From Isosphaeraceae bacterium (lineage in GTDB: Bacteria; Planctomycetota; Planctomycetia; Isosphaerales; Isosphaeraceae), in NCBI GenBank assembly GCA_025356475.1, contig JANXSX010000150.1, positions 124,001-188,000 on the forward strand: a stretch of DNA of 64,000 bases. Reading direction: 5' to 3'. Shown piece after piece: positions 1,198-31,735 of the stretch. Position numbers and translations under genes: made by a program. Position 1 is the first letter of the stretch, and each line of letters starts with the position of its first letter. The notes below the pieces were generated by a model. That model searched no databases and was not told where the DNA came from. It saw only the letters and a list, made by a program, of their open reading frames with translations.

Positions 1198-2823
1198 ATG
1201 CTCATGGATCGTGCTCATTGGGGCATGGTAGCGGTTCTCGCTGCAGGGGTTTTTCTCTCTGGTGCGGGGGCGAGCGCGGTCGACCGTGATGCCAAAACCG
1301 GGGCGACCACCAAGTCGGAAGACTTCGTGGATCGAATGATCAAAGAAGGCTGGGATGAGGCCAAGATCAAACCTTCCAAGGTTGCTCCTGAGCCGGAGTT
1401 TATGCGTCGTGCTTACCTTGATGTCTTGGGACGCGTGCCCAACATTCAAGAAGCGACCGCCTACCTAGAAAGTCGCGATGCTGGCAAACGAGCCAAGCTA
1501 GTCGAATATTTGCTAGCCCATCCCGACTATGCCAAGAATTTCGGCAACATCTGGACAGTGAGCCTGATTGGTCGGCAACGCCAGGAGCGACAGGTCGATC
1601 GTCCTGCCCTCTCTGCTTGGCTGCGACGCCAATTCGCCGATAACCGACCGTGGGACAAGGTTGCTTACGAGCTCATCACCGCGAAAGGGTCGAACAAAGA
1701 CAACGGGGCCGTGAACTTCACACTCGCTCACATGGAGAGCGGAGCGGTGCCTTTGACCTCGACGACGACCCGAGTCTTCCTCGGTCAACAAATTCAATGC
1801 ACCCAGTGCCACGACCACCCCTCGAACGATTGGAAGCAGGCTGATTTCTGGGGAGTGAACGCCTTTTTCAAGGGCCTGACCCAGAAAACAGTTCGCAAGG
1901 AGAATGCCGCCGGCTTGGAGGTCGATGATTACACCGAACTCTCCCAGCGCATTCCCGAAGATCCGTTCGTCTACTTCGATAAACGCAACGCCGTGAGAGG
2001 CGCAGTCCCTCCTACGTTCCTGGACGGTCGCAAGATCAATCTCAACTCCGAAGCCGATCGCCGGGTCGAGTTTGCCAAGTTTGTGACCGAGCCCACCAAC
2101 GCCAACTTTCCCAAATCGATAGTCAACCGAATGTGGGCGCACTTCTTGGGCAGAGGGTTCGTCAGCCCAGTCGATGACTTTGGTCCGCATAACCCCCCTT
2201 CCCACCCGGAACTGCTCGACAAACTCGCCGAGGAATTTCAGGCCAGCGGCTATGACATCAAGAAGCTGGTCCGTCGGATCATGGAAACGCAGGCCTATAA
2301 CCAGACGAGCGTGACCACCCCCAACAACGAAAAGGATGACACCCTTTTCAGCCATGTGGGTTTGAAGCCAATGAGTCCCGAACAGCTTTTCGATTCGTTA
2401 TTGACTGCCACGTCCGCCCACAAAGCTGGCGGTGGGGCCGACTCCGAAAAGCGTCGCGACGCCTGGCTAGGCCAGTTTATCTTTGCATTTGCGAACGATG
2501 AAGGGGAGGAATCCTCGAGTTTTCAGGGAACAATCCCGCAGGCGTTGATGATGATGAACGGGGAGCTGATGGAGAAGGCGGTCGGTGGCAAGCCAGGCAG
2601 TTTCTTGGCCGATTTGCTCGAAAAAGCCCAACTCCAGTCGCGAACCGCTCCCGAGATCTATGTGATTAACCACATGTATCTCGCGGCGCTCGCCCGTCCG
2701 CCATCCGCTCGCGAGCTGACCATGGCCCGAAACTTCCTGAACTCCAGCCCGGACACCATTCGGATCATGGAGGACCTGTTCTGGGCCTTACTGAACTCTA
2801 ATGAATTCGTGCTCAATCGTTGA
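1198..2823 (+). CDS. DUF1549/DUF1553 secreted protein with a cytochrome c-like CxxCH motif
   Basis: A 541-aa protein of the planctomycete PSCyt2/PSD1 type. It has an N-terminal signal peptide or anchor (residues about 8-27), a DUF1549 region (about 40-215) holding one CTQCH motif at residues 201-205, and a DUF1553 region (about 285-530) with a conserved NRMWAHFLGRGFV segment. ATG 1198 follows an AGGAG at 1186-1190. The next gene is a DUF1501 protein 72 bases downstream, the usual partner in planctomycetes, where the pair is very often co-located. The CxxCH motif suggests covalent haem or another redox role, but the biochemical function of the family is not established. It is shorter than many family members because it lacks the extra N-terminal cytochrome and concanavalin-like domains. 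Confidence 0.93.
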   Translation: MLMDRAHWGMVAVLAAGVFLSGAGASAVDRDAKTGATTKSEDFVDRMIKEGWDEAKIKPSKVAPEPEFMRRAYLDVLGRVPNIQEATAYLESRDAGKRAKLVEYLLAHPDYAKNFGNIWTVSLIGRQRQERQVDRPALSAWLRRQFADNRPWDKVAYELITAKGSNKDNGAVNFTLAHMESGAVPLTSTTTRVFLGQQIQCTQCHDHPSNDWKQADFWGVNAFFKGLTQKTVRKENAAGLEVDDYTELSQRIPEDPFVYFDKRNAVRGAVPPTFLDGRKINLNSEADRRVEFAKFVTEPTNANFPKSIVNRMWAHFLGRGFVSPVDDFGPHNPPSHPELLDKLAEEFQASGYDIKKLVRRIMETQAYNQTSVTTPNNEKDDTLFSHVGLKPMSPEQLFDSLLTATSAHKAGGGADSEKRRDAWLGQFIFAFANDEGEESSSFQGTIPQALMMMNGELMEKAVGGKPGSFLADLLEKAQLQSRTAPEIYVINHMYLAALARPPSARELTMARNFLNSSPDTIRIMEDLFWALLNSNEFVLNR

Positions 2824-2895
2824 TGGTTTATCGGTGCAGCGTTTCTTCCTATTCCTGATCCGACCGGCCCTTTAGGCCGAAGGGGTATCGAGACC

Positions 2896-4179
2896 ATGAG
2901 CGACAGCCTGATCGTTCCCAGTGGCATGAGCCGCCGCCACTTCATGGGCCACATGGCCAGCACAACACTTGCCTTACCGGCGATGCAGTTCATGTCGTCG
3001 ATGACAGCCAACGCGGCTGCCCTTCGTAAGGCGAACAAGAGCTGTATCCTTTTATGGATGAGTGGTGGCCCCAGCCACATGGATATCTGGGACCTGAAGC
3101 CCGATAGTTCCAAAAATGGTGGCCCGTTCAAGCCAATCACTACCTCGGCAGACGGGGTGATGATCAGCGAGCACATGCCCAACGTCGCCAAGCAAATGCA
3201 GCACATGAACATTGTCCGGTCGTTGAACTCGAAAGAGGGCAACCACGACCGGGGTACTTATATGATGCATACTGGATACGCGCCCAACCCGACGGTTGTC
3301 CACCCTGGTTGGGGGTCGGTTTGCTCGTATGAGCTGGGACAGAAGCTTGAGAACTTCGACCTGCCGCACTGTATTGCGATCAACACTCCCGGTCAACCGG
3401 CAGGCTTCCTGGGGATGACTCATTCGCCGTTCATGGTCCAGAATCCCAACGCCCCCGTGGCTAATCTGAAGCCCCCTGCAGGGGTGGATGCTGACCGCAT
3501 GGGACGTCGGTTACAAATGCTCGGCATGGTGGAAGATCAGTTCGTCTCCCAACGTCGTGGTCAGGCCCCAATCGACCACAAGGCGGTCTACAATAAGACC
3601 GTCCGGATGATGAATTCGCGTTATACCCAGGCTCTCTCACTCGATAAAGAGCCGGCTGCAGTCCGTGACGCCTACGGGCGAGGTTCGTTCGGCTCGGGCT
3701 GCTTGATGGCGAGGAAACTCGTTGAGACCGGTGTCACCTTCGTAGAAGTCGGACTCGGCGGCTGGGACACGCATCAAAATGCGTTTGAAACCTTGTCACA
3801 ACGACTCATGCCCGAACTCGATAAGGGGATGGGGGCGTTGATCGCCGACCTTGCCCAGCGCAACTTGCTCGACAACACCATGGTTGTCTGGATGGGCGAG
3901 TTCGGTCGCACACCCAGAATCAACCAGGATGGTGGTCGTGACCATTGGCCGGTTTCATGGTCGATCGCCATGGGTGGTGGCGGCATGAAGGGGGGCCAGG
4001 CCGTAGGTTCGACCGACAGAGATGGTGTCGAGATCACCGATCGGCCCGTTGGAGTCATGGACGTGATCGCGACCATGACAAAGACCATGGGTATCAATGT
4101 TGAGACTCAATATACGACCCCACGAGGTCGGCCGATGAAGGTCGTCGATGCGGGCAAGCCGATCGCCGAACTGATCTGA
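2896..4179 (+). CDS. DUF1501 family, Tat-exported sulfatase-like protein
   Basis: A 427-aa protein whose N-terminus carries a twin-arginine signal (SRRHFMG, Arg13-Arg14) followed by a hydrophobic stretch ending near residue 37, so it is probably exported folded. The body belongs to DUF1501, which is structurally related to the alkaline phosphatase/sulfatase superfamily. Typical segments are LWMSGGPSHMDIWDLKP near the start, WDTHQNAFE in the middle and GEFGRTPRINQDGGRDHWP near the end. It follows the DUF1549/DUF1553 gene by 72 bases and is very likely in the same operon. The strong inverted repeat at 4205-4244 ends the unit. The substrate is unknown. The ribosome-binding site is weak; ATG at 2926 inside the gene is a less likely start because it would shorten the region ahead of the Tat motif. 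Confidence 0.93.
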   Translation: MSDSLIVPSGMSRRHFMGHMASTTLALPAMQFMSSMTANAAALRKANKSCILLWMSGGPSHMDIWDLKPDSSKNGGPFKPITTSADGVMISEHMPNVAKQMQHMNIVRSLNSKEGNHDRGTYMMHTGYAPNPTVVHPGWGSVCSYELGQKLENFDLPHCIAINTPGQPAGFLGMTHSPFMVQNPNAPVANLKPPAGVDADRMGRRLQMLGMVEDQFVSQRRGQAPIDHKAVYNKTVRMMNSRYTQALSLDKEPAAVRDAYGRGSFGSGCLMARKLVETGVTFVEVGLGGWDTHQNAFETLSQRLMPELDKGMGALIADLAQRNLLDNTMVVWMGEFGRTPRINQDGGRDHWPVSWSIAMGGGGMKGGQAVGSTDRDGVEITDRPVGVMDVIATMTKTMGINVETQYTTPRGRPMKVVDAGKPIAELI

Positions 4180-4256: not shown

Positions 4257-7200
4257 TCAATCTCGCGCGAGCCGACCCGTCAGCCAGAGCGCCCCGCCCA
4301 CAACTGCCAAGCCCGCATTCTGGCCGGTCGACGCAAGCCCGATGCTTGCGATCAGTAGGATCACGATGACCGTAACTCCGCTCATGGGCTGAGCCGCAGT
4401 CCAGAGACGGATGCCAACCGCAACGAGTATAACCAGCCCCAAGCCCCACCAACGGCTCATCGTATCGGACCACTCGGGCGTTGTCGCGTGGCCTCGTTCA
4501 AGACGAGGCGGGGTCGCATCGGGAGGTACAATGGTTGAGGACTTCAGACCGAAATGAGCGAAGTATTCGCTAGGATCGGACCGAACGCGAGCCATGGCAG
4601 CGACACGACTCGCAGCGCTACTTTGGTTCATCTCAAGAAGGTCAGACAGTTCGTCCCAGCCTCCGAGCTTGAGGGCCTTCTTCGCGTCATTGAGCTTTGC
4701 AGCCAGGTCGCTCTCAGACGTCCAGGGGCGAAGCAGGCCGAGCCGTAGCCGTGCGACAGCGTTGTCTAAGAGGTGTACAACGTCCAGGTCGCGGCGAGGG
4801 CGGCTCGCGAGTTCGATCACTCGGTCTGCAAGCGTGCGGATCTGTTCATCTGTCACAAGGTGCGGCTTGTTCGTGTCCAGAGCAGGGGTCATCCGGACCT
4901 GACTGGGATGAAACACGATGTAAGTCTGGGACACCGAGCGTCCATTTGCCAGATCTGGTGCCTTGAGAGGCCCATTCGAGCCCGAGGTCCCGTCCCACAT
5001 CATGGCCAAGCGAGTGATGCGGGGGCTGGGGATCTCGATCAATAAGGAATCGCCATCCCCGCTCCAAATTGGGGTTGGTTCGCCTTCGATCAAAGCTGTC
5101 GTCGGCATGACCCCTGTGGGGAATTTGACGCGTAGCCATCCCTTAGAGCCAGGTTTGAGCCAACATGTGGAGACGCCGCGAATGTGATCAAAATGGTCCG
5201 ATACTGCGGTCACGTCGACATGACTGACTTCGGGTACGACCGGTGCCAGTGGAGTTGGCTCCGTCGATAGCTCTAGGCTCCAGGACGCGAGTGGCTGAAC
5301 AGCCCACACGAGGTCGACTCGGTCGAAGGGCGTTGTTTCCTCGATACCGAATTTCGTCGCCTCCAGGGCTTGCAAACCCCGCGTTTCCGGAGTGGCGAGG
5401 GTCTCTCCAGAGACGTTCGCGACTCCCACCAAGGCTCGGAGTTCGCCGGTGCCCAAGGGGGTCAGTTCGGGAACAAACATGGGCTCACCCGCCGATCGAG
5501 GACGTCGACCTCGGACGACCACACGAGCGTGAGACCAGAGTGGTCGGACAGGCCGTAGTACCTTGACGGACTGAGCGGCGTCACGAAAGGGCTCAAGAGA
5601 AATCGCAACGCCATCAAGTTCTGCCCGGACTTCGTTCGCCCAAATCGCGGGCAGTTGGATCGGGATCGAGTCTGCTGGGCCATCAAGAAAGGTATAATCA
5701 AGGACGCTGATCCATTCCTGCGTTTGTGGCTCGATCCGAAGGACCGAACGGGCGAGGACGTCAAAGCGAGTTGAGGGAATGTCAAACCGGAGTCGAATCG
5801 GCTCATCAAAATAGGTGAGTTGATAAACATCCTTGGACTCGCGTTTGAGTCCCGTCCCTTCGACGTTGACTGGGAAACCCGCCACGATCGAGAGATGGCC
5901 AGGCTCATCCGCTGCAGTGTCGAACCGGGGCCAGCGGATAGTGAGCTCGGGGCCATCGACCGGCAACCATCCTGAGAGCCGGACCGTGGGCGCAAGCACA
6001 GTCGCAGCGTCGAATCTAAGCCTAAGTCTGTCTGGCCGAGGTCGCGACCAGTGGGTTAAGCCTGGAGCCTCGACCTCGAAGAGATGGAGTTTGGGATCAA
6101 TTGTGATGTCGGACTCGACACCCGAGCCCGAAACCGTCGTGAGCTTGGTTTCGAGACGCCAGTCGGCCCTACCTCGCGAGAGGATGATCTGGAGTTCGGA
6201 ACGCGCAAGATGTCGACTCGGCGTCGGGCCCAGCGTTGCCGCGACATCCGCGCGGATCTTGAATCGAACGACACCGGCGAGTGTTAATGGTTCCGAGGGA
6301 AGCTCGCCCCAGGCACGAACGAATTCGAAATCTGGGGCAATCCCGAACGGGCTTGGACCCGTGAGCCTGCCCGTCCAGTCGCTTGGTCGCCGCAGCGCGA
6401 GCATGCCGCTCAGATTTCCGCCCCCTCGCAGTTCTAGGCCAGGTCCGCGCCGGGGACCGGTTCCGCTTGTGATTGGACGCCAGAACTCCAGCTCGATCGG
6501 CTTGGAAACTCCAGGATCTGTCGATGAGTGTTCGAAGTGTCCGATCCACTCATTCCCATCGGCTCCAAGTTTGATCGAATCGGAGACCAGCTTCCCTGGA
6601 TGCTGGAGCGAGCGGAGTATCACTCCCGCCTCGATTCCAAGGCGGAGCTCAGTGACAGGCTGGCCATCGACCGCTCGCAGTCGAACGCGGAGGCGATCAC
6701 CTGCCGGTTCTGCATCCCAGAGCATCAAGCCTTGGTAGTCGCGTACGGAACGGATTGGAGCAGAACCCCAGGTCATATCAAAATGATCCACAGGACCGAG
6801 GTGCGGCAGTCCCGGCAGTGGGTCATCCTGTGCGACCGTCATAATCGCGAACGAAGAGGGAACCAGAAGGACTCGGGCAAGCCGCCCCTGGGATCCGTTT
6901 GGCTTTGTTTCAACCTGGCGCTTAAGTCGGACTTGGAACGTCCCACTTGATTCAAACCAAACCCGACCCGTTGCCCCCCCTGGATCAATTTCCACCGAGG
7001 CGGGCTTGCCATTGATCGTCATGGTCAGATCGTGGGAGCCGACGATCGGAAACGACCAGGAACCGGGTGAGACGACTCGCAGCGCCCAATCTGTGACGAA
7101 TTCGAGAGATGTCCCATCGGGAACGCCGGCGGAGTGCTCAACACGAGTCGCAACCACTGCGGGAAATGTAGATTCGATCGTCCCGCTGGATATCGATTGG

Positions 7201-10200
7201 AGCCGTTCAAAGTCGGCGAGCTTGAGGATTGCGCGGGTTGGCGTCTCGCGGGCGAGAGGAACCTCATCGTATGGGAACAGGACCCAGATGGGGGCGACTG
7301 GTCCCACTAGCTCGGCCCCCAGGATTAACGGAAGGAGACTCAGCCCGATCAACGACCCTGGGGTAACCCTGGGCCGACGGTGGGTGGAGGAAGACTCGCT
7401 TGGTCTCGCGGGGAGACTCCGTGCCCGAGCCATTCCCGCCCAGAGCAAGCCAACACCGAGCCCCCCCCAGACCAGGCCACTTGAGATCGGCGACTCAACA
7501 TCCAGGAACAGGCTTGACAGAGAAGCTAATAGGACAACAGCGAGACCCAGAATTCGGGGCTTCCGGCGGGATCGGCGGAGCAAGACTCCCCCGGTCAGGA
7601 CCATGATTCCCGCATAGAGTCGCCTGAACTCGTCGATCCGAGGGTCGACTAAGGTGATCACTGCCGGGGCATCTCCGGTCGACGTCGCAGGAACGAATCG
7701 GACGACTCGCCAGCCAGGACCAGGCCTTGGATCGACGCCCGAAGTCCCAGACGCGAGTTCGGCCAACGACGGAGTTGAAACCCAGCGATCGACGGTTTGG
7801 AGTCGGTCCAGCGCGTCAGATCCCTTCGAGATCGCGGTTCGAATTGCCGGCTCCCAACCGACTGCGGTCGGTTCAAGCGTCGTTGTGACAAGAACGGCTT
7901 TGCCGAACCCACGCAGTTCCAAACCCGAGTCGCGGAGTCGGCCGATGACGTCCCTTGTGCTGGACGGTTTGAGGCGACTGCTGGGCGACCAACCGGCTGA
8001 GGCAAGTGCGAGGCGGTCGATCACGAACGGAAACGACTCCTGATCCCACTCGGTAAAGAGTTCCCCTAAGGGTCGATCGAGTAGGTCGTTTGCAGCGATC
8101 GACGGAACATAGGTGGGCTCACGTTGTGGGAAGAAGGAAACAAGTCGTTCCCACACGCCAAGTTGGCCAACTTCGGCCTCAACCCATCGTGAGTCGTTCG
8201 GGACTGCGTTCCAAGGTTCTGGGAGAACCAGCTCCCAGCGCCTGGTGAGGATCGGTAACGTTGAGATCGGCCAGGGAGCGATGCGTGTGTGCCCGTTAGA
8301 CTTCTCTGTGAACTCCAGAGTGACGAGTCGCGTGACGGGCTTATCCACACTGCCGAGAGGCAGCGTCAATCCTCGACCTTTGAGCACCGGTGTGACTGGT
8401 CGACCATCGACCGAAACGGACTCGAGCATCACTCCTTCGGGAAGAGTCAGATTGAGCGTCCCAGAGAGCACCGCCAAGCGGAGCCGATGTCGGCTCGTCG
8501 GACCTGAGGGGTCGACTGTCGTGGTGAGCACCGCCTCGTTGATGATCCCCTGCGGCGTGATCGCGGTTAGCGGCTTGATCTGGAGGGTCAGTTGGTCGTT
8601 CGGAGAGTCGTACCCCAAAAAAGTCGATGTGGTCGTTGCCTCGGCCTCAATGCCTTCGGATCGAGGGTCGAGTGGTACCATCCCTTGGCCTCCACTCGAC
8701 ATCAAAATATCGGGGTCCACGTGGATGTGGACACGCCCCTGAGTCAGTCGCCCATTGCCGGGAAAGAGGAGCGGCAACGAACCGGAGGTGCTCGGCTGAC
8801 TCCAGCGACCGATGAGCCGAACCGATCCCTGCCTGGGCTGGGGTAAGGTGAGAATCCATCCGCTGGCTGTTGGTTCGGAGATTACACTAGGCCCATTCGG
8901 GACCTCCTCAAGACGCCATGTGACTTCGTTCTCGACCCGGACATTCGAGATAATCGGGAGTTTCGTCACCTCGATCTTTCCAAGATCCGCGATCAGCTCG
9001 ACCTCAATCGTAGTTGACTCCCTGGCAACATGGGCATCGATCTTAGTTGTCCACGTTGGGGAGCTGAGGACCCGCGCCAAGGCGATTTCAAGGTCGCCGA
9101 AATCATCGAGCCAGCGCCAGGCTAGAGCGTCATTGGGTCTGGGCTCGCCGAGTTGTTTGGGATCAATCCAAGTCAGGCCGCGGGCTCGGTTGGGGCTGCA
9201 TTTCAGGCCTTCCGCAAGTCCGAGAACCCATCGTTCATCGGCGATTCGGACTTCTGAAGGCCTGATCCGAGGAGGGGACCAGCGCTCTTGATTCACGTCC
9301 CGGTCTGCGGTTGCGATGATGACGAGTTCGATCTTGCCTTGTTTGATCAAGTCTGGAGGGGGTGTGACTTCAAGCCTGAATCCTCCCGCCTCGGTCGAGG
9401 TGGTCTTCCAATCGGCTAGTCGCGTCCCATCGATCCGTTCGACGTGTTCCGGAGTCCAACCCGTCGGTAGGTCAACCGATAGGACCAACGGAACGCCTCG
9501 GGTCAGTGTCCATTGAATCGTGGTTGTGGCTCGGTCTCGACCGCTGCCGACCTGGACCCGCCCCCGGATGTCGGCCCAGGCATCAGCGACCGGTGAACCG
9601 AACGTCAATGTTGCGACCGACCCGAGGGCGTTGGACTCGAGTACCACGAGAGGGGTCGCCCCTCGCTCCTGCCTGGTTGTGAGTCGCCGTCCTGCCAACT
9701 CGCGGCATTCGAGTAGAGTCCGTCCGGCGTCGAGTCTCACGGTCGTCTGGCCGCCGGTCCAGATGGAATCTAACGGTCGCGCGGTCGGAATCGTCCAATC
9801 ACCCGTGACTGGTACTTGCGCCATCCCTTGAAGCGTCAGGCTCGTGGGGCCTCGAGTCTCGGGGTCGAACCGGATAACGAGGCGTGAGCGGCCCTCGACA
9901 CGTTCGATGCGGCTGGAGACGACTCGTGGGCCGGTGGCGCTGAGAAGTTCCAGTCCGGGGTCGAGTTCAATGGCAAGGCGTCGGGGACCTGACTCGCGTC
10001 GCTCAACGACCCAATCGGCTTTCCATGTCGCGCTAGCTCGACCGAAGGTCCAGAGGCTCGGGCCGCCAATTAAGAGCGGGGCGGCTGACGACGTTGGCCT
10101 CAACTTCAAGTCCAGTTGCCCCAAGCTGCCTTCAATAATCCAGTTGCGGCGACCGGGAAGGGACGCGGGGGCGGGCGTTGCGAGCGTTCCTGGAAGATCC

Positions 10201-10754
10201 TCGGGGGTGAGGGACTCGGGGAGGTCGAGCGTCAACCGTGCTAATCCCTCGCCGGGTAAACCAAGCGCAAACGACTGCCCGGAGCTTTCAGGGCGAGCTC
10301 GCTGGCTCCAGTCAAGGGTCACTGTGGTTGTCCCCGAGACATCGGGGACCAGTAGGAGGGCTGTCCGACCGTCGTTCAGGCTTACGACTTCAGGAGGACG
10401 AGTCAGCAAACTCGGTGACCAGGGACTCAAGGGGATCAAGCTCGGGCCGGACTGGGCGAGTTCGACCGTCAACTCAGATCCACCGAGAAGGACCCCATCA
10501 ACCCAGCGAATCTTGTGATTCGCCGCCACAACACGGCCTAATCGTTCCACCCCCTTCGGCTTGTTTCGAGTCGTGTCGAGGAGTGACTCAAACTCGGTGT
10601 AGCTGAGACCTCGGAGGGGAGTTCCGGTGGGAAACCAATCCTTAACTCGCGCTGCTGGGACGCGGATTGGCACGATCTTAGGGGTGGGAACATCGGCCCC
10701 GGTGAGGGCGCTCAGCAAGAATCCGATCGCCCCCAGTGACCACAAGCGACTCAT
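4257..10754 (-). CDS. Giant (2165 aa) membrane-anchored beta-rich protein of unknown function, internally duplicated
   Basis: I do not recognise a named family. The protein starts with a signal peptide (residues about 5-20). A long beta-strand-rich region follows to about 1045, then a cluster of hydrophobic helices (about 1048-1165), a second beta-rich region, and C-terminal helices (about 2085-2165). The segment after the central helices restarts like the N-terminus: a VPIRVP-type strand, then a short F-E-S/R-L helix. This suggests a tandem duplication. A segment around 265-320 (LDPGLELLSATGP, then SRL and LQGMAQVP) matches the upstream neighbour, and a weaker echo lies near 1560. ATG 10754 overlaps the stop of that neighbour (ATGA), so the two are translationally coupled. 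I see no catalytic motif. It may be a secreted or envelope structural or adhesion protein. It is certainly coding: one uninterrupted 6.5-kb frame. Confidence 0.85.
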   Translation of the reverse strand: MSRLWSLGAIGFLLSALTGADVPTPKIVPIRVPAARVKDWFPTGTPLRGLSYTEFESLLDTTRNKPKGVERLGRVVAANHKIRWVDGVLLGGSELTVELAQSGPSLIPLSPWSPSLLTRPPEVVSLNDGRTALLLVPDVSGTTTVTLDWSQRARPESSGQSFALGLPGEGLARLTLDLPESLTPEDLPGTLATPAPASLPGRRNWIIEGSLGQLDLKLRPTSSAAPLLIGGPSLWTFGRASATWKADWVVERRESGPRRLAIELDPGLELLSATGPRVVSSRIERVEGRSRLVIRFDPETRGPTSLTLQGMAQVPVTGDWTIPTARPLDSIWTGGQTTVRLDAGRTLLECRELAGRRLTTRQERGATPLVVLESNALGSVATLTFGSPVADAWADIRGRVQVGSGRDRATTTIQWTLTRGVPLVLSVDLPTGWTPEHVERIDGTRLADWKTTSTEAGGFRLEVTPPPDLIKQGKIELVIIATADRDVNQERWSPPRIRPSEVRIADERWVLGLAEGLKCSPNRARGLTWIDPKQLGEPRPNDALAWRWLDDFGDLEIALARVLSSPTWTTKIDAHVARESTTIEVELIADLGKIEVTKLPIISNVRVENEVTWRLEEVPNGPSVISEPTASGWILTLPQPRQGSVRLIGRWSQPSTSGSLPLLFPGNGRLTQGRVHIHVDPDILMSSGGQGMVPLDPRSEGIEAEATTTSTFLGYDSPNDQLTLQIKPLTAITPQGIINEAVLTTTVDPSGPTSRHRLRLAVLSGTLNLTLPEGVMLESVSVDGRPVTPVLKGRGLTLPLGSVDKPVTRLVTLEFTEKSNGHTRIAPWPISTLPILTRRWELVLPEPWNAVPNDSRWVEAEVGQLGVWERLVSFFPQREPTYVPSIAANDLLDRPLGELFTEWDQESFPFVIDRLALASAGWSPSSRLKPSSTRDVIGRLRDSGLELRGFGKAVLVTTTLEPTAVGWEPAIRTAISKGSDALDRLQTVDRWVSTPSLAELASGTSGVDPRPGPGWRVVRFVPATSTGDAPAVITLVDPRIDEFRRLYAGIMVLTGGVLLRRSRRKPRILGLAVVLLASLSSLFLDVESPISSGLVWGGLGVGLLWAGMARARSLPARPSESSSTHRRPRVTPGSLIGLSLLPLILGAELVGPVAPIWVLFPYDEVPLARETPTRAILKLADFERLQSISSGTIESTFPAVVATRVEHSAGVPDGTSLEFVTDWALRVVSPGSWSFPIVGSHDLTMTINGKPASVEIDPGGATGRVWFESSGTFQVRLKRQVETKPNGSQGRLARVLLVPSSFAIMTVAQDDPLPGLPHLGPVDHFDMTWGSAPIRSVRDYQGLMLWDAEPAGDRLRVRLRAVDGQPVTELRLGIEAGVILRSLQHPGKLVSDSIKLGADGNEWIGHFEHSSTDPGVSKPIELEFWRPITSGTGPRRGPGLELRGGGNLSGMLALRRPSDWTGRLTGPSPFGIAPDFEFVRAWGELPSEPLTLAGVVRFKIRADVAATLGPTPSRHLARSELQIILSRGRADWRLETKLTTVSGSGVESDITIDPKLHLFEVEAPGLTHWSRPRPDRLRLRFDAATVLAPTVRLSGWLPVDGPELTIRWPRFDTAADEPGHLSIVAGFPVNVEGTGLKRESKDVYQLTYFDEPIRLRFDIPSTRFDVLARSVLRIEPQTQEWISVLDYTFLDGPADSIPIQLPAIWANEVRAELDGVAISLEPFRDAAQSVKVLRPVRPLWSHARVVVRGRRPRSAGEPMFVPELTPLGTGELRALVGVANVSGETLATPETRGLQALEATKFGIEETTPFDRVDLVWAVQPLASWSLELSTEPTPLAPVVPEVSHVDVTAVSDHFDHIRGVSTCWLKPGSKGWLRVKFPTGVMPTTALIEGEPTPIWSGDGDSLLIEIPSPRITRLAMMWDGTSGSNGPLKAPDLANGRSVSQTYIVFHPSQVRMTPALDTNKPHLVTDEQIRTLADRVIELASRPRRDLDVVHLLDNAVARLRLGLLRPWTSESDLAAKLNDAKKALKLGGWDELSDLLEMNQSSAASRVAAMARVRSDPSEYFAHFGLKSSTIVPPDATPPRLERGHATTPEWSDTMSRWWGLGLVILVAVGIRLWTAAQPMSGVTVIVILLIASIGLASTGQNAGLAVVGGALWLTGRLARD

Positions 10755-13700
10755 GGCAAGTCACCCGGACTTGGAGTGGTTGCGCTCGGCTCACTCGGAC
10801 TCACCACGTGCTTCCCCCGGGAGGAACCAGGCCTTGTACGAATGGCGGTCGAGTCGTCCGAACCAACAGGAACGTACTCCGCAGTCGACGTTGCTGGGAG
10901 TAACGGAGCATGGTTGGTCGAGATCTCGGGGTAACTTGGGCCTCGGCGTCGCTCGACAATGCGTTGAGTCGCGAACGCAACGATCCCGAGCACCAGTCCG
11001 ACGAGTGACGATTCAACAATCAACACCAGAAGCCTGGCGTCGAGCGTGACGCTCAAGAGGAACCCAACACCGGTAATCAGCCATGCAACGATCCATGGTC
11101 GGAAACGACCGATCAGCGAGGCGAGGCTGATCGCCAACGCCAGGGCGGATGCCACCAACACAAGCAAGGTGTGGGGCACGATGAAGAGCCGCAGCGGGCT
11201 AGGAGCGTCGAGTCGGCTGAAAATAAGGCGCTGAGCACTCCGGCGGTTACGAAAATCCGATGGCGAGCTTCCACCAAACCAGTCTCGGATCGCCCGATCA
11301 TCGCGAGCCGCCCGTCCCACGAGTCCCTGGAAAACGCCCCAATCGATGGGGCTCTCATCGGTCCAGCCAGTTGGCTGGCCGACCGCAACATTACTTCGCG
11401 CGAGGTCGATCTCCCAGACCGACTGCTGCACAGTGGTCTCGATCAGTTCAGGGGCAACCCAGTCGAGGCTCGTATCGGCGGGGAGGAGTCTATAGTCGAT
11501 CTCGACCAAAATCGGACCACGACCGAGGAGTTCGGTTGGCAGGTCGAGTCGGTAGCTTGGGGGGCGAGCGGTGAGGAGCGTCAGTTGTGTAACTACCTGT
11601 CCCCCAACGGTCACCGCCAAGTTCTTGGCTCTGTCCGGCATTCGGAAGCTCAGCGTCGGACGCTTGGAGAGTAACTGATAGCGAGCGATTGTTCGCCAGA
11701 TGTCTTTGTTCGCTTCGGTTTGAAACCAGGCACGAGAGGCAACCGCACTCGGGAGACTGGCCAAAGTAGGAGCCGCAACATTAATTCTTAGGCTGGGTGC
11801 GGTCCCGGAGGGGCGAAGGATGATGAGATGATCTCCACTCCACTGGGGGCCAACCCTTCCTTGATCGGCTCGTCTCAGCGAGTCATTCTCGGTCGATTCA
11901 ACGACAAGACCGTCAGCGATGTTGACATCGAACTCGGTTGCGGACTCGACCGCGTTCGTCACGACCACTCGGGGAATCACCAGATCGAGCCCCGGACTCC
12001 CCCGCGCGAGGGGTGAGATGGAGATCCGATACCGGAGTGAGAGGGTTGCGGAACCATCTTCACCCCCGATGATGTTTACCGAGTATCGAGGGGATTTAGC
12101 TCCCGGATCGGCTACCAGACTTGGTGGGTCTCCTGCTTCGTTCGTCCAAGTCGCGCTAATCTGTGGGTCGGCGGAGAGATCCAGACGTCGAATCTCACCG
12201 AAATCTGACGAGACTTCGATCTGTTGGGCGACCTCGATCCACTCGGAACGGAGAGCCACTTCGATCTTTGAACGCGCTTTCAGCTTCTGGGGGATCGGAG
12301 TGAAAACAAGCTCGATTCGATCGGTAGGCTTCTTCGCCCTCCCGAGAATCGGAGGCTGTCCATCCTCGAATCCGACCCCGCGTGGCCAATCGGAGGGCTC
12401 GAAGCTCAGAAAGGGGTCGAACTCGAACGTTGAGTTGGGGGCGAGTGTGACCTGTTGCTCGGGACCACAAACCACGGCAATTCGATGTTCCCGACCCAGA
12501 GGTTGAACCGCTCGAAACAGGCCGATGGCCGCCTCACCTTCGAGTGGTACCGCAGCCTCTCCTTCGATGGTTAGACGTGTGGTTCCCGCCTCATGGCCGA
12601 GCGGTGTCAATTGGAGGAAGAGCCGTGAACCCCCCCCTTCCAATGGTGCCAATCGGCTTGATCGGATCAGCTCGGCGGGGCCGACCTTGACGAAGTCAAG
12701 TCCAGGGCCAAGATCGAAGACCGCGTCAAACAGACGCCCTTGTGTTATAGTTGTATTCGCATATGAACTAACGCGTGCAAGTCCGTCTTTAATATCGACA
12801 CGGGTCGATTGAGCGACCAACGCAACAGCGGAAGGAGACTCGACTTGGAGCTTTAGCTCGAACGGTTGGTCGGTGAATACGAAGCCCAGTAGCTTACCAG
12901 GCTGGTTTCGAAGTTCGTCCGGTAGTTCAGAACGAGGATCGATCTGGCGGATCAATGGCCCGAGAGTGGTGCTGACCCACAAGTCGTCACCCGGTTGGAC
13001 CGCGAGCAGGCCGGTCTGCGTTCGAGCCTGCAGAAGAGCGTGGCCATGAAAATCGATGGTTGCCGGTAAGGTCGGCAGCCGCCTTCGAGTCGTAAGGTTG
13101 AGCTTTAGCGGACGGACGGGATTCAGAGGCTTCGTCAGTTCTATAGTGAGTACGCCGTCTTGGCCGTTGGTCGCATCTCGTTTCTGGCCATCGACTTCCA
13201 GACTAATCAACTCTTCCTTGGGGTCGAGCTGGAGTTGGATCACTGCGACTTCGCCGCGAAGGGCCTGGAGTTCCCAACTCGACCGGGTCGTGATACTTCC
13301 GACCGAGATTCCCAAGGCGATCTGCCCCTGGGCTGCCAGAAGCGGCGGGCCTTTGGCCTCGGCCCGATCATCAATTTTCCAGTCGAGAACCAGGCGAGAT
13401 CGCGGAGAAACCCTCGCATTTAACCGCCGGCGGCGTCCTCCCTCGATCGATTCGATCGTTGCAGGCTCGCCCTCGCCAACGGTCGCTGAGGCGACTCGAC
13501 CCTCAACATCGAGTCGAACACCCGCCGAGGCGACCTCGGGAATCACCCAATCCAGGCGGCGACCTTCGCTCGTGGCTCGGACCGACGAGGCGAATACGAC
13601 GATGATCCGGTGCTTTCCTTCTCCACGGACTTCAATCTCCCATCCTGTTCCAGGGATGAATTGGATCGGTAGGTTGCGTATCCCGTCTCGGGCGGAGCCT

Positions 13701-14161
13701 AGCGCGATGCCGTCAAGTCGGATCGGGATCCAGCGAGGCTTGGAATCGGCGAGATTCACGTCGATTTGCATTGTCATGGCCGCGCGATCGTCGACGACTT
13801 CGCCACTCAGTTCAACCGCATCGACGACCGCGTCAGCGGGATCCCGAGGGGGCCGTTTCGATCTCTTGGTCAATTCCCTATACGTCTTGCCATCGAGCAG
13901 AACAAAGTCGGGATCTACCAATCGCGACCAGAGCGAGGTCAGATCGCCTGGAGCCTCAACTACGATCGGGATGCTCACGGGCGGTGCGGGCTCCTGTCCT
14001 ATCGCTAGACCACAAGGGTCAATGATCGCCCAGAAGGCAGCCCAAACCAGGATTAAGGTCGGTACGCGGAATCGCACGAGTTCTATTGCCTCAGGCCCGC
14101 AAACTCCAGTCAAACCGCCTAAGTCTACCACAGGGAAAGGTCGATGGTGAGGAACGAGCAT
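10751..14161 (-). CDS. Large (1136 aa) membrane-anchored beta-rich protein, paralogue of the downstream giant protein
   Basis: Unrecognised family. ATG 14161 gives a long N-terminal extension; a GTG at 14077 (VRFRVPTLILVWAAF) would start directly at the signal peptide and is a good alternative. A mature N-terminus with a VSIPIVVEAP strand and a GKTYRELTKR segment is followed by about 850 residues of predicted beta-sandwich. Around residue 490 the pattern LGPGLDFVKVGPAELIRSSRL, then SRL and IEGEAAVP, parallels the giant protein. Three or four transmembrane helices lie at about 985-1075 (LFIVPHTLLVLVASALALAI onward). The C-terminal tail is Ser/Pro/Thr-rich and probably cytoplasmic. The stop overlaps the next start by ATGA. 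It is divergent from the FIST gene with a 95-base gap, which should hold promoters for both. Confidence 0.82.
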   Translation of the reverse strand: MLVPHHRPFPVVDLGGLTGVCGPEAIELVRFRVPTLILVWAAFWAIIDPCGLAIGQEPAPPVSIPIVVEAPGDLTSLWSRLVDPDFVLLDGKTYRELTKRSKRPPRDPADAVVDAVELSGEVVDDRAAMTMQIDVNLADSKPRWIPIRLDGIALGSARDGIRNLPIQFIPGTGWEIEVRGEGKHRIIVVFASSVRATSEGRRLDWVIPEVASAGVRLDVEGRVASATVGEGEPATIESIEGGRRRRLNARVSPRSRLVLDWKIDDRAEAKGPPLLAAQGQIALGISVGSITTRSSWELQALRGEVAVIQLQLDPKEELISLEVDGQKRDATNGQDGVLTIELTKPLNPVRPLKLNLTTRRRLPTLPATIDFHGHALLQARTQTGLLAVQPGDDLWVSTTLGPLIRQIDPRSELPDELRNQPGKLLGFVFTDQPFELKLQVESPSAVALVAQSTRVDIKDGLARVSSYANTTITQGRLFDAVFDLGPGLDFVKVGPAELIRSSRLAPLEGGGSRLFLQLTPLGHEAGTTRLTIEGEAAVPLEGEAAIGLFRAVQPLGREHRIAVVCGPEQQVTLAPNSTFEFDPFLSFEPSDWPRGVGFEDGQPPILGRAKKPTDRIELVFTPIPQKLKARSKIEVALRSEWIEVAQQIEVSSDFGEIRRLDLSADPQISATWTNEAGDPPSLVADPGAKSPRYSVNIIGGEDGSATLSLRYRISISPLARGSPGLDLVIPRVVVTNAVESATEFDVNIADGLVVESTENDSLRRADQGRVGPQWSGDHLIILRPSGTAPSLRINVAAPTLASLPSAVASRAWFQTEANKDIWRTIARYQLLSKRPTLSFRMPDRAKNLAVTVGGQVVTQLTLLTARPPSYRLDLPTELLGRGPILVEIDYRLLPADTSLDWVAPELIETTVQQSVWEIDLARSNVAVGQPTGWTDESPIDWGVFQGLVGRAARDDRAIRDWFGGSSPSDFRNRRSAQRLIFSRLDAPSPLRLFIVPHTLLVLVASALALAISLASLIGRFRPWIVAWLITGVGFLLSVTLDARLLVLIVESSLVGLVLGIVAFATQRIVERRRGPSYPEISTNHAPLLPATSTAEYVPVGSDDSTAIRTRPGSSRGKHVVSPSEPSATTPSPGDLP

Positions 14162-14256: not shown

Positions 14257-15411
14257 ATGAAGTGTGCATCAGCCCTCTCAACCCTCAGAAATACCGAAGC
14301 GGCGACCGCTGAGGTCCTCGAGCGTGTGAAAGCAGGGCTTAGTGGGGATCCCGCAGACCTCGCTTTCCTGTTCGTAAGCCCTCACCATGCGGAGGATCTC
14401 GGCAAGATTGGCCGGAAGGTTATTGATGCGGGTTTGGCTCAACATACGATCGGTTGTTCCGGCGAATCGATCATCGGTGATGGGCAAGAAGTCGAGGGTT
14501 CGTCGGCCCTCTCGCTCTGGACGATCTCATTGCCCGAGACTAGCCTTACACCTGTACGACTTGAACAGGGGACGTCCGGGTTTCGCGGTTGGGAACCGGA
14601 CTGGGACCGTCCGACACCCGATGCTCGGACCCTGTTTCTGATGGGCGACCCGTTCCGGTTTCCCATGGACGACTTTTTCAAGAGCCTAGCGAAGTCAAGT
14701 CCAGGGCTCAAAGTCTGCGGTGGGATGGCGAGTGGTGGAACAACGCCAGGCCAGATCCGGATCATGCTCGATGGTGTGGCGTTTGCCGAGGGGGCGGTGG
14801 GGATGCTCGTTGACGGGCCTGCACGGATCAGTCCGATTGTGAGTCAAGGCTGTCGACCGATTGGTCGGCACCTGATCGTGACCAGTGCCGAACAGAACGT
14901 GATCCGTGAGCTGGGGCGTCGTCCTGCTGTTGATGTCCTGCGCGAGATTTACGAGAGTCTGAGCGAAGAGGAACAGAGTAAAGTTCGCGATGGGTTGCAT
15001 CTGGGAATCGTGATTAACGAGTATCAAGACACCTTTGAGCGAGGCGATTTCCTGGTTCGTAATGTGTTGGGGACAGATCAAGCCGGGGGGATCGCGATCA
15101 CCGATCTCGCCCGGGTCGGCCAGACGGTCCAGTTCCATATCCGCGACGCCGAGACGGCTCATGAGGACCTTGTGTCACTATTGAGCCGGGACCGGGGCGA
15201 TGCGCAGGCCGCTGGCGTTTTGGTTTTCAGTTGCAACGGGCGGGGTACTCGCCTCTTCGGCGAGCCTGACCACGATGCCACCGCAATCACTCAAGCGTTC
15301 GGACCAATTCCAACGGCAGGGTTCTTCGCTATGGGCGAGCTCGGCCCGGTCGGGGGGCGCAACTTCGTGCATGGGTTTACGGCAAGTGTCGTCCTTTTTG
15401 AGGAGTCATAA
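14257..15411 (+). CDS. FIST N- and C-domain protein (putative small-ligand sensor)
   Basis: A 384-aa soluble protein with a FIST N domain (about 20-200, with the TIGCSGESIIGDG segment) and a FIST C domain (about 215-365, with LGIVINEY, FLVRNVLG and the FSCNGRG signature, ending GFFAMGELGPVGG). FIST modules are found in signal transduction proteins and are proposed to bind small ligands such as amino acids. This stand-alone form has no kinase or cyclase output domain. The ATG at 14257 has a GGAG about 11 bases upstream. The next gene starts 3 bases after the stop, so the two probably share an mRNA. Confidence 0.92.
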   Translation: MKCASALSTLRNTEAATAEVLERVKAGLSGDPADLAFLFVSPHHAEDLGKIGRKVIDAGLAQHTIGCSGESIIGDGQEVEGSSALSLWTISLPETSLTPVRLEQGTSGFRGWEPDWDRPTPDARTLFLMGDPFRFPMDDFFKSLAKSSPGLKVCGGMASGGTTPGQIRIMLDGVAFAEGAVGMLVDGPARISPIVSQGCRPIGRHLIVTSAEQNVIRELGRRPAVDVLREIYESLSEEEQSKVRDGLHLGIVINEYQDTFERGDFLVRNVLGTDQAGGIAITDLARVGQTVQFHIRDAETAHEDLVSLLSRDRGDAQAAGVLVFSCNGRGTRLFGEPDHDATAITQAFGPIPTAGFFAMGELGPVGGRNFVHGFTASVVLFEES

Positions 15412-28207: not shown

Positions 28208-31200
28208 TCACGATCGAACGTAGGTACCATCCCCAATGTCGCGGGCATGACCGAGCGAGACAAGAGTGTCGAGTAGCTCTGCAACACGGGAAGCTTGGCC
28301 GCGTTTGAAGCTCTTCGCAATCAGGGCTGGAGTCAAGGCGGAGGGGCTGGCGGCCAAGAGGGCTCGAACGGCTTGGGCCTGTTCCGGAAGGGTCGTGGGC
28401 CAGGGTTGTTTCTTTGTGGGGTCCAAGGTGTTGTCGGCGGCCTCAGGCCCGTCGGGCAGGAGCTTGCCTTGATGGGAGAAAGGGAGCTTAGGGCTGCCGG
28501 GGTTCTGGAACTCGGGCCTAAGCCAGCGAATCAGTCCTCCTTCCTCTTCCTCGGCACGTTCGTGATTCAGTGTCACCAGCCGGACGAGGATTTCGTCGTC
28601 CGGCAAGTCGTGTGGCCAACCGTAAGCGTCCAAGACGGCTGAGTCGAGTTCCTCGTGAATTTGTTTGAGGACCGACACTAGCCCCTGGTCGTGGATCACG
28701 CGATCTTTATCCGTCAGGCTTTCTCCTGAGTGGAGCTTAGCTAGGATGTTGTACATTCCGGTGAGAGTCAGTGTCGGATGCTGGGCTTGGCAGGACTTGC
28801 GGTGTGCGTCGAGCCGCTCGGCAATTTGGCGGATTGTTGTTTTAGGTTTGTCCTTCAGTATTGGAAATGGAAAAGGTTCGAAACATCGGGACTTGTTATA
28901 GCGTGGATCATTACCGACACCTAACCGCCCTCCCGCAGCGAGTGACCAGGCGAGATGAACTCGTGACGAGAGAACACCTAAAACATAAGCATCTTCGACT
29001 GCGATATTAATGAGCATGTTATCTGGCAAAATGGATTTATCCAAAAAGCTGAAGAACCGATGCTTCGAAGTCTCGGTTGTCGCAATGAAGCGTGTTACAC
29101 TCGCCAGAGCGGGCCGGAACGTGCTGATGGGTTCGCCGAACAGCCACCAATTCAGGCGCCTCCCTTCACGTTTGTTTTGATCGCGTTCTGGTTTTACACG
29201 ATTTAGGACCCATTGAAAAACTGCCGGGAATCGCCGGATTAACTCCGCTTCCGTCAAGCCGTGCAGATCGATTACCATGACGCCGCGTGAGACCTGATTA
29301 AGATCACGGCCATTAATATACTTGCGGATGTGTCTCTCAAGACCGGCGATTGATCCCAAGCCGAGCGAATGCGCTTGCTCGGGTGTGACCAGGAATCCCG
29401 ACCCATGCAACACAACACCCCGACAACTGAGGCCCTCGTTCGCCCGTAGAATTGCACAGGAGCTTACATCCGCCCCGATCGTCAGGTTCGCGAGGATCGG
29501 ACCGACGCGATAGGCCAACTCAACTTGATACTCACCTTGGTCAGTCGCGTTCTCGAAATTGACATGTCCGAGGAGTCCGTCTTCCTTTCCCGCCTCAGCC
29601 ACTGTCATTGAAATCCGCACTGCGGCGCCGTCCGCAGAATCCACCCAGGGATGATCAGGAATTGCGAAGCGTAGAGACAAAGGATCTTGTGCTTGCAGAT
29701 GAGTCTGAATCACACGGCGGTTGAAGGTCTGCCGCAAGCTATTCGTCGTAATCAAACCGAATCGTTTTATCAATCCCTTGCGAACTAGACTCGCAGCATG
29801 GTTCCACCAATAGAGAACGAAATCGACCGATTCGGGAAGATCATCCTGAGTTGAACGAAGAGCTTCGGCATATCCATCGCCTACAGCAGCACGGAGTGGC
29901 CCGGCACCGATAAAGGGCGGGTTCCCGACGACGTAATCCGCCTTGGGCCATTCGGCCTTGCGAGGTTTCAGATACCTCAGGATAGGAACGTGGGCCGAGT
30001 CGTCAGGCACTTTCTCTCCGGGGATCGGATGGACCTTCATTGTTCGTCCATCCCAACGCGTTGCCACGTTTCCGTTCTTGTCCAATTGGAATTCGGTGCC
30101 ATCGAAGTCCAAGACGGCATCTCGGCATTCGATGTTGTGATAGGCCCGGATGATCGGCTCGGCGGGCATCTTGTCGTCGTACGTTCGGAAATGCCACTGG
30201 AGATAGCCGATCCAAAGGACGAGATCAGCAATCGCGGCGGCGCGGGGATTGATTTCGATGCCGAGGAACTGGTGGGGATCGACGGTCATGCCGAAGCCTT
30301 CGAACGACTGGGTTTCGCCGAGCTGCTTGAGGACGTCCCAGACCTCGCCCTCAAGACGCTTCATATGCTCCAGTGTCACATACAAAAAATTCGCGGTCCC
30401 GCAGGCGGGGTCAAGGACCTTGATCGAACAAAGCATCTTCAAAAATTCATGGATGATCGACCTGGCCGCGCGGAGGGCCGCGTCTCGCTTGGCGGCAGCG
30501 ACCCGGTCGCTTTTCACTTTCCGCTTGGCCGTGGCCATCGCATATTCGTCGTCGGCTTCCTTGATGAGCGTAACGGCGGCGGTCAGGACATCGGACCACT
30601 GCTCGCGTAACGGGTCAATGATCGTGGGCATCACCAGCCGTTCGACGTAAGCCCGAGGCGTGTGGTGGGCACCGAGCTTGTGACGTTCCACGGGGTTCAA
30701 GGCCCGTTCCAAGAGTGTACCGAAGATTGCGGGTTCCACGTCACGCCATTGCATCTCACCGGCCTCGACCATCAGGGCAAGTTGAGCGGCGTTGAGGGCC
30801 AGGGCATCGGCAGATTCAAAGAGGCCGCCATTGAAGTGTAGAAGGTGAATATCCAGAATGGGCGAGAACCCGCCAGTTCTCATCGTCTCCCACAGTGAAC
30901 GTGTCTTCTCGCGAAAGATTGACGACTTCCGCCCCTCCTGAAGCTCGCGGAGCATATTCGTGAAGCCATCTTTGGGCAAGAGCCCCACGTCTTCGGCGAA
31001 GAACGTGAATAGGCAGCGCATCAGGAATTGGGCCACAACATCGGCGGCATGGCCCGACACTTCTAGACTTTTTGCGAGTTTTGCCAGTCGATCCGCGACC
31101 TCCTTGGTGACCTTGGCCGATCGTCGGGTCGGGTCCAATTCGAGAGGGTCCGTCCAGACGAGGCGTAACCGTTCGCGGAGTTCGGGCCGGGCCAGGTCGC

Positions 31201-31735
31201 GAAATGGAATTCGATGTGTCAACGCGTCGGGAAACGGGATGAATGTTCGGCCTTGGCGTGTGAAGTCCGAATAGACTTCGATAGTGTGGCCGACGTCCAC
31301 CACAAGAATGAATGGCGGGTTCGGCTCGGACGATGGCAAGGCGCGAACGTATTGATCGGCCTGGCCCTTGGCCGCCCGCATGGCTTCGTCCCACCCACCG
31401 GTGCCCCGGATCGCAGTGCCGCGTCGAATCCGTTTGGGTGAGGCAAAGAGTTCCGAGCCCTCCGTCCGGTCGGTCCCCTGCTTTGCCTCTAGGACGAACG
31501 CGTCCCGTTTGTAGAGGTCGATCCGTCCAGGACTGGTAGAACCGTCAGGATTCTGGAACGTGACAGCGCGTTCAAAGACATAACTGTTCTCGGAGTCATC
31601 CGGTCGAGTCGGCTCAGGCCGGGGTACGCCAAGTACGTCGCAGAGGTCGGACAGAAACAGTTGATAGTTCGCACGTTCCGCCCCGCCCGAGGCTTCCCAA
31701 CGGGCTAAGAAAGCATCGATATCAGCGTTTGGCAT
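28208..31735 (-). CDS. MmeI-like (type IIL) restriction-modification enzyme, single polypeptide
   Basis: A 1175-aa protein combining nuclease and methyltransferase. The N-terminal PD-(D/E)xK site is Asp73, Glu83 and Lys85 ([15 protein letters not shown]), with the same D-x9-E-x-K spacing described for MmeI. A helical linker (about 210-330) leads to the adenine-N6 methyltransferase with GAHHTP (355-360), motif [10 protein letters not shown] (442-450) and motif IV NPPF (605-608). A target-recognition region follows (about 700-950), then a C-terminal helical part and a winged-helix-like end. Motif I reads GTA where GSG or GTG is usual, so a conserved glycine is replaced. No separate methylase, specificity or nuclease gene is adjacent, in line with type IIL enzymes. 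ATG 31735. The sequence specificity cannot be read from the protein by eye. Confidence 0.88.

Follow-up and report, generated by a model that had tools for sequence, protein, structure and literature searches.

Overlapping genes of an Isosphaeraceae bacterium encode three homologous, membrane-anchored β-domain units of a family widespread in planctomycetes

The window, a 64,000-nucleotide stretch of an Isosphaeraceae genome, carries two large genes, A and B, on its minus strand. The first-pass annotation described them as two genes of 1136 and 2165 aa overlapping by ATGA, and their coordinates, sizes and junction are confirmed. The B protein consists of two units, BN and BC, joined in one chain. 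A single-protein search finds one copy each of A and B in the genome. The parts mapped onto the two genes are as follows.

10751..14161, minus strand: gene A, 1136 aa
4257..10754, minus strand: gene B, 2165 aa, two units (BN and BC)
10751..10754, minus strand: ATGA overlap between the A stop and the B start; the junction reads ccATGAgtc
13997..14065, minus strand: signal-peptide helix of A, residues ~33-55 (hydropathy)
13859..13978, minus strand: entry segment of A, PIVV ... YREL, residues 62-101 (sequence; model helices 71-82 and 91-101)
11327..13843, minus strand: β array of A, ~5 domains starting near residues 112, 274, 446, 627 and 806 (AF2 strands, self-profile repeats, fold search)
10946..11173, minus strand: three transmembrane helices of A, residues 997-1017, 1022-1039 and 1042-1072 (model; hydropathy)
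10838..10861, minus strand: tail motif of A, SDDSTAIR, residues 1101-1108 (sequence)
10695..10754, minus strand: signal peptide of B, residues 1-20 (sequence, read by eye)
8172..10508, minus strand: β array of BN, residues ~83-861 (mapped from A by hhalign; first start extrapolated)
7410..7634, minus strand: three transmembrane helices of BN, residues ~1041-1115 (alignment read by eye; hydropathy)
7296..7352, minus strand: fourth central transmembrane helix of B, residues 1135-1153 (hydropathy; 3+1 pattern in relatives)
4905..7166, minus strand: β array of BC, domains starting near residues 1200, 1340, 1514, 1664 and 1843 (AF2 model)
4554..4850, minus strand: helical segment of BC, residues ~1969-2067, not seen in the A model (model, low pLDDT)
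4263..4469, minus strand: three transmembrane helices of BC, residues ~2096-2164 (model; hydropathy)

There is little doubt about the common plan: each unit consists of an entry helix, about five tandem β domains of ~170 aa and three transmembrane helices, the entry helix being a signal peptide or, in BC, the internal fourth transmembrane helix. The signal-like N-termini and C-terminal membrane helices reported earlier for both proteins appear in the hydropathy profiles (the B signal peptide by eye), and the PIxV strand followed by a short helix corresponds in A to the entry segment at residues 62-101. The signal helix of A lies at residues 33-55, so translation may actually start at a codon downstream of the ATG listed. 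In the middle of B, several relatives display three helices and then a fourth just before a PY-type start motif. This fourth central helix occupies the expected site of the BC signal peptide and reads as a former signal peptide.

The homology of the three units is revealed by profile-profile comparison. Family alignments of 26 A relatives and 17 B relatives, with full-length rows picked from the loci found, were compared by hhalign. A aligns with BN at a probability of 99.8% over 784 columns, A with BC at 99.7% over 829 columns and BN with BC at 99.0% over 813 columns, each collinearly, while three reversed and 30 column-permuted control comparisons reach a maximum of 0.8%. The match between BN and BC substantiates the earlier claim that B repeats its layout after the central helices, which here comprise three transmembrane helices and the fourth. 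The pairwise comparison of A and the two parts of B, set earlier as a check, thus yields profile homology at 99.0-99.8 for the sequences and a like fold for the A and BC models. Plain BLASTP and phmmer were also tried for comparing units and were rejected, the signal being too weak to decide: BN and BC are barely detected (E 0.01) and A and BC remain undetected (best E 0.09). One pairwise BLASTP comparison aligns A 482-546 with B 262-322 (37.9% identity, E 4.9e-4), recovering the segment previously noticed in both proteins, though one domain out of register, with domain 3 of A against domain 2 of BN; in the collinear profile alignment of A and BN, domain 3 pairs with domain 3. A single-protein scan of the genome contigs with B returns no relative, and alignment A1 returns 18 named loci.

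Scoring with unit-type profiles, built from 10 fused loci outside Planctomycetia, places each unit of the window in its own type, the top scores of A, BN and BC being 152, 78 and 40 bits. Most other units also score best on their own-type profile, with cross-type scores often amounting to hundreds of bits. Among the 34 units tested, L062_BC and L107_BN score higher with the other B profile, and mixed scores are obtained for the halves of L119 and L120 and for L116_g1.

At two loci, L109 (G355) and L111 (G307), three genes in a row stand in place of two, encoding 1128/1237/1138 aa and 1202/1419/1470 aa, respectively, and every one of these genes has its own signal-like N-terminus. In gene order, the three L109 products score 963/515/461 bits on the A profile, 492/658/423 on BN and 457/418/665 on BC; the L111 products score 869/405/404, 388/498/356 and 402/384/526. 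The top profiles thus run A, BN, BC at both loci, lending independent support to the duplicated units. On a tree built from 82 of the 139 units, the labels A, BN and BC change 3, 2 and 1 times, a level reached by none of 500 shuffles, and the units of the window group with same-type units of Isosphaeraceae. Since the labels fit the tree and the window's units fall among their own type, the three units seem to predate the sampled families. The tree is unrooted, carries SH-aLRT support only and has its long branches flagged. It is compatible with either direction of change: B may have arisen by fusion, or the L109 and L111 arrangements by fission. The type-I BN group adjoins the type-I A group (SH-aLRT 99); owing to the flagged long branches, no order of duplication is claimed. 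The proposal that an ancestral membrane-anchored β unit was duplicated, with two copies now in one polypeptide, is supported by the profiles, the tree, the repeats and the domain map.

Each unit is built in turn from about five ~170-aa domains in tandem, an observation that goes beyond the first-pass annotation. Self-comparison of A gives a match at an offset of ~176 columns (98.2%). With profiles from other classes, repeats at one and two periods are found at 99.9/99.1% in A, 99.3/98.4% in BN and 99.5/97.2% in BC, the self-match being weaker in the Isosphaeraceae profiles (BN 63%, BC 73%). In the AF2 model of A, five long hairpins begin at residues 112, 274, 446, 627 and 806. Carried onto B by the profile alignment, these starts fall at 1202, 1337, 1513, 1665 and 1840; the BC model, predicted separately, places them at 1200, 1340, 1514, 1664 and 1843 (model residue + 1140), within 3 residues for all five domains. 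Both models end in three helices. Model confidence is modest, with pLDDT of 73 and 70 and pTM of 0.34 and 0.37 for A and BC, respectively.

The family is widely distributed. The A profile matches 242 of 297 Planctomycetia genomes. A sample of the phylum gives 65 matches among 246, comprising 16 of the window's genome and class and 49 others; for the B profile the count is 114 of 148. Given the homology of the units, all these figures describe the family as a whole. The family is not indispensable, as some near-complete genomes (e.g. G020, G001) contain no match. Gene order was followed in 67 regions, chosen mostly for A hits and not all independent; two have no A call and two have A at a contig end, leaving 63 testable. 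In 56 of the 63, a large same-strand B-like gene directly follows A, a positive answer to the earlier question of whether planctomycetes keep the order of the pair. Profiles identify 54 of these B-like genes (L066 included; L093 weakly, at 22 bits), and L104 and L138 are assigned by size alone. The exact 4-base overlap occurs in 16 regions. A lacks an adjacent B in L074, L076, L077 and L108, the gene order differs in L116, L118 and L127, and B is located elsewhere in the genomes G016, G003 and G019. In L119 and L120, a two-unit gene follows a VWA gene, with no separate A. For one family (f2), four genomes (G115, G042, G050, G088) were sampled at two sites each; all of them carry a second, paralogous pair, one of the two pairs having a longer B of 2658-2698 aa.

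No characterised sequence family accounts for these proteins, in line with the earlier expectation. Pfam and NCBIfam give no above-cut-off match for A or B of the window, and Pfam gives none for four distant family members. Against PDB sequences, profile A1 matches two de novo designed proteins only (E 0.012 and 7.5) and profile A2 matches none. Searches of the literature, judged by title and the opening of the abstract, return no description of the A-B pair, and the passages covered of a P. limnophila essential-gene paper (PMC10632474) do not name it.

In fold searches with the A and BC models (Foldseek, VIA), Ost1/ribophorin I and the N-domains of M1 aminopeptidases rank at or near the top, the VIA matches covering mainly A 100-349 and BC 372-522, with the other domains barely probed. 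The predicted A residues 100-263 resemble the M1 N-terminal domain (PF17900) with Z 14.2 and rmsd 3.0 over 155 residues, and residues 373-518 of the BC model do so with Z 12.0 and rmsd 3.0 over 138 residues. Ost1 matches residues 107-442 of the A model (Z 14.1, 313 residues, rmsd 13.9 Å) and residues 56-522 of the BC model (Z 13.2, rmsd 23.9 Å). These large rmsd values, from matches spanning at least two domains, suggest an arrangement of domains other than that of Ost1. Both resemblances, as modelled, are of fold only and carry no demonstration of function. Ost1 and A/B alike have β domains on a membrane anchor; Ost1 is a subunit of the eukaryotic oligosaccharyltransferase, whereas A and B are bacterial, with about five domains per unit, fifteen per pair and a three-helix anchor. 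In contrast to M1 peptidases, A and B form a tandem array lacking both HExxH and profile similarity. An active-site motif common to the whole class was also sought and rejected: with the pattern applied, the GWxDENxWxW stretch fits 9 of 10 Isosphaeraceae A proteins, the window's A departing from it, and the full pattern is found in none of the remaining A proteins (16 of type I, 5 of type II and 12 others).

The gene neighbourhood was surveyed in 58 regions: 18 (L061-L078), 20 (L089-L108) and 20 from outside Planctomycetia. An IMPase-family gene, whose closest NCBIfam model is HisN at a score below cut-off, occurs in 9/18, 13/20 and 0/20 of these sets, respectively; it looks metabolic and gives no pointer to a scaffold. 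A zf-HC2/HEAT protein is found in nine regions of L061-L078 and in none of the other 40. Upstream of the pair, a PMT-family (PMT_2) gene is present in 8 of the 18 L061-L078 regions, those of Isosphaeraceae type, and likewise in 0/40 others. In the window's genome, these usual neighbours (PMT, zf-HC2/HEAT and IMPase) lie together on one contig (C57), and A and B, parted from them, are still paired on another (C163), a point in favour of the A:B association. Outside Planctomycetia, a VWA protein of zf-HC2/VWA/YfbK type is encoded directly upstream in 5 of the 20 regions (L117, L119, L120, L121, L128), four of them with an ECF sigma gene. Region L126 has a sigma gene and no VWA gene, as does L106, where the sigma gene is on the opposite strand. 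Among the four VWA proteins scanned, the zf-HC2 domain is detected in those of L117 and L128 and not, at the thresholds used, in those of L120 and L121. These zf-HC2/VWA/YfbK and ECF sigma clusters share a context with the A-B genes without being homologous to them. As none of the 38 Planctomycetia regions has a VWA gene beside A-B, this link may not apply to the window. Among the eight proteins scanned next to type-II loci, no gene recurs.

The first-pass annotation suggested surface-type proteins. The signal peptide, the C-terminal three-helix anchor and the tail beyond it fit a location in the inner membrane, with the β arrays predicted to be periplasmic. Provided this topology is right, the tail motif SDDSTAIR of A is cytoplasmic. 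The pattern T.[ILV]R recurs in all 10 Isosphaeraceae A tails tested, in 6 of 16 other type-I tails and in 0 of 17 others, against a background of 87 in 860 windows. A different location would follow if A and B were independent cell-surface adhesins or S-layer-type structural proteins exposed outside the cell, as the long β-domain chains among the Foldseek matches (integrin alpha legs, PrgB Ig domains and a biofilm protein domain) might suggest. This is unlikely, however: TM-scores to the integrins and PrgB are near 0.1, the three-helix bundle and the tail motif conserved in Isosphaeraceae fit an inner-membrane anchor, and conservation of the pair speaks against independence. Less likely again is a bridge-like carrier of lipid or polysaccharide across the periplasm in the manner of AsmA/TamB. 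Its appeal lies in the membrane-anchored, repetitive β architecture and the very wide occurrence, but AsmA/TamB proteins are anchored at the N-terminus, unlike A and BC with their C-terminal helices. The fold-search matches listed for the two models include no such carrier, an absence that carries no weight against this reading.

The top-ranking Ost1 matches of both models, together with the PMT_2 gene upstream in Isosphaeraceae-type regions, raise the idea of an accessory scaffold in a protein-glycosylation or maturation machine working with that nearby GT-C enzyme. We consider it very improbable, given the rmsd of 13.9 Å, the position of PMT apart from A-B in the window's own genome and beside A-B in none of the 40 other regions, and the lack of any Ribophorin_I (PF04597) match, both in the Pfam scan of the window pair and, with E values of up to 10 allowed, among 30 genomes. 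The M1 N-domain fold (Z 13-14 and rmsd about 3 in A, Z 12 in BC) could in turn mark degenerate M1-type peptidases, reduced to the N-terminal domain and still acting on peptides. Several searches make this a highly implausible reading: PF17900 matches neither A nor B at E up to 1; its matches in 19 of 30 genomes are other genes, in G000 only at C223; an M1 N-domain profile of 19 segments reaches a probability of at most 11% against A, BN and BC; and HExxH, the zinc motif of M1 peptidases, is absent from the window's A, BN and BC and from 42 of 43 A units, occurring scattered in 4 of 139 units overall. That the units resemble one another through β-rich composition and not homology, as the weak BLASTP signal between them might be taken to imply, can be practically dismissed in view of the permuted and reversed controls, the cross-type scores of hundreds of bits and the natural three-gene versions.

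The reading we favour, at somewhat better than even odds, is that A and B constitute a non-catalytic, inner-membrane-anchored periplasmic hetero-complex acting as a scaffold or sensor. Formation of an A:B complex, inferred from gene order, is probable. In the proposed arrangement, A and B would assemble 1:1 in the inner membrane, and about fifteen β domains would project into the periplasm from a base of ~10 helices, serving as non-catalytic binding or spacer modules. The complex would tie the inner membrane to either the periplasm or the outer envelope. Since its domains, predicted to fold like the M1 N-terminal domain and Ost1, would be such modules, it may work as a scaffold or as a load or integrity sensor; this role is the weakest step and is put forward tentatively. 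In some lineages, a putative anti-sigma protein of zf-HC2/VWA type and an ECF sigma factor could read out the state of the complex.

In conclusion, a gene pair of ~10 kb lacks a Pfam or NCBIfam entry, and profiles place its family in most Planctomycetia sampled and in further classes of the phylum. The envelopes of planctomycetes are unusual and many of their conserved proteins are nameless; the recurrence of the pair points to a widespread, undescribed part of their cell envelope. Its repeat hierarchy (domain ×5, unit ×3), the natural splits and the paralogous second pair make it a concrete experimental target. More speculatively, and with a low likelihood, A and B may form an undescribed, near-universal pseudo-trimeric inner-membrane machine of Planctomycetia, in which ~15 Ost1/M1-N-fold domains sense or set the distance and state between the inner membrane and the remaining envelope and, within part of the phylum, feed an ECF sigma pathway. 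If so, this machine would perhaps account for part of the envelope organisation specific to planctomycetes.

Around A and B, adjacent genes for giant membrane-anchored proteins (1136 and 2165 aa), the window carries the following genes.

1198-4179, plus strand: PSCyt2/PSD1 and DUF1501 genes, convergent with the 3' end of B
14257-15411, plus strand: FIST-domain protein (PF08495, PF10442), divergent from A
28208-31735, minus strand: MmeI-type restriction-modification protein, 1175 aa
41592-47697, minus strand: DUF4175-type protein, 1213 aa, and adjoining VWA protein, 801 aa

Downstream, a DUF1501 gene converging on B is also seen in the Planctomycetia regions L062, L066, L071, L072 and L073. Upstream, the FIST-domain gene starts 95 bases from A, occupying the place of the IMPase gene found beside A in many relatives. 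In L077 (13331-21934), another Planctomycetia region, A has no neighbouring B; two large genes for Ser/Thr kinases come after it instead, one bearing AAA and the other TPR domains. Outside Planctomycetia, the giant genes of loci L117, L119, L120, L121 and L128 are adjoined by genes for proteins that combine VWA and YfbK_C, two of which also contain zf-HC2, and in four of these five loci by ECF sigma genes.
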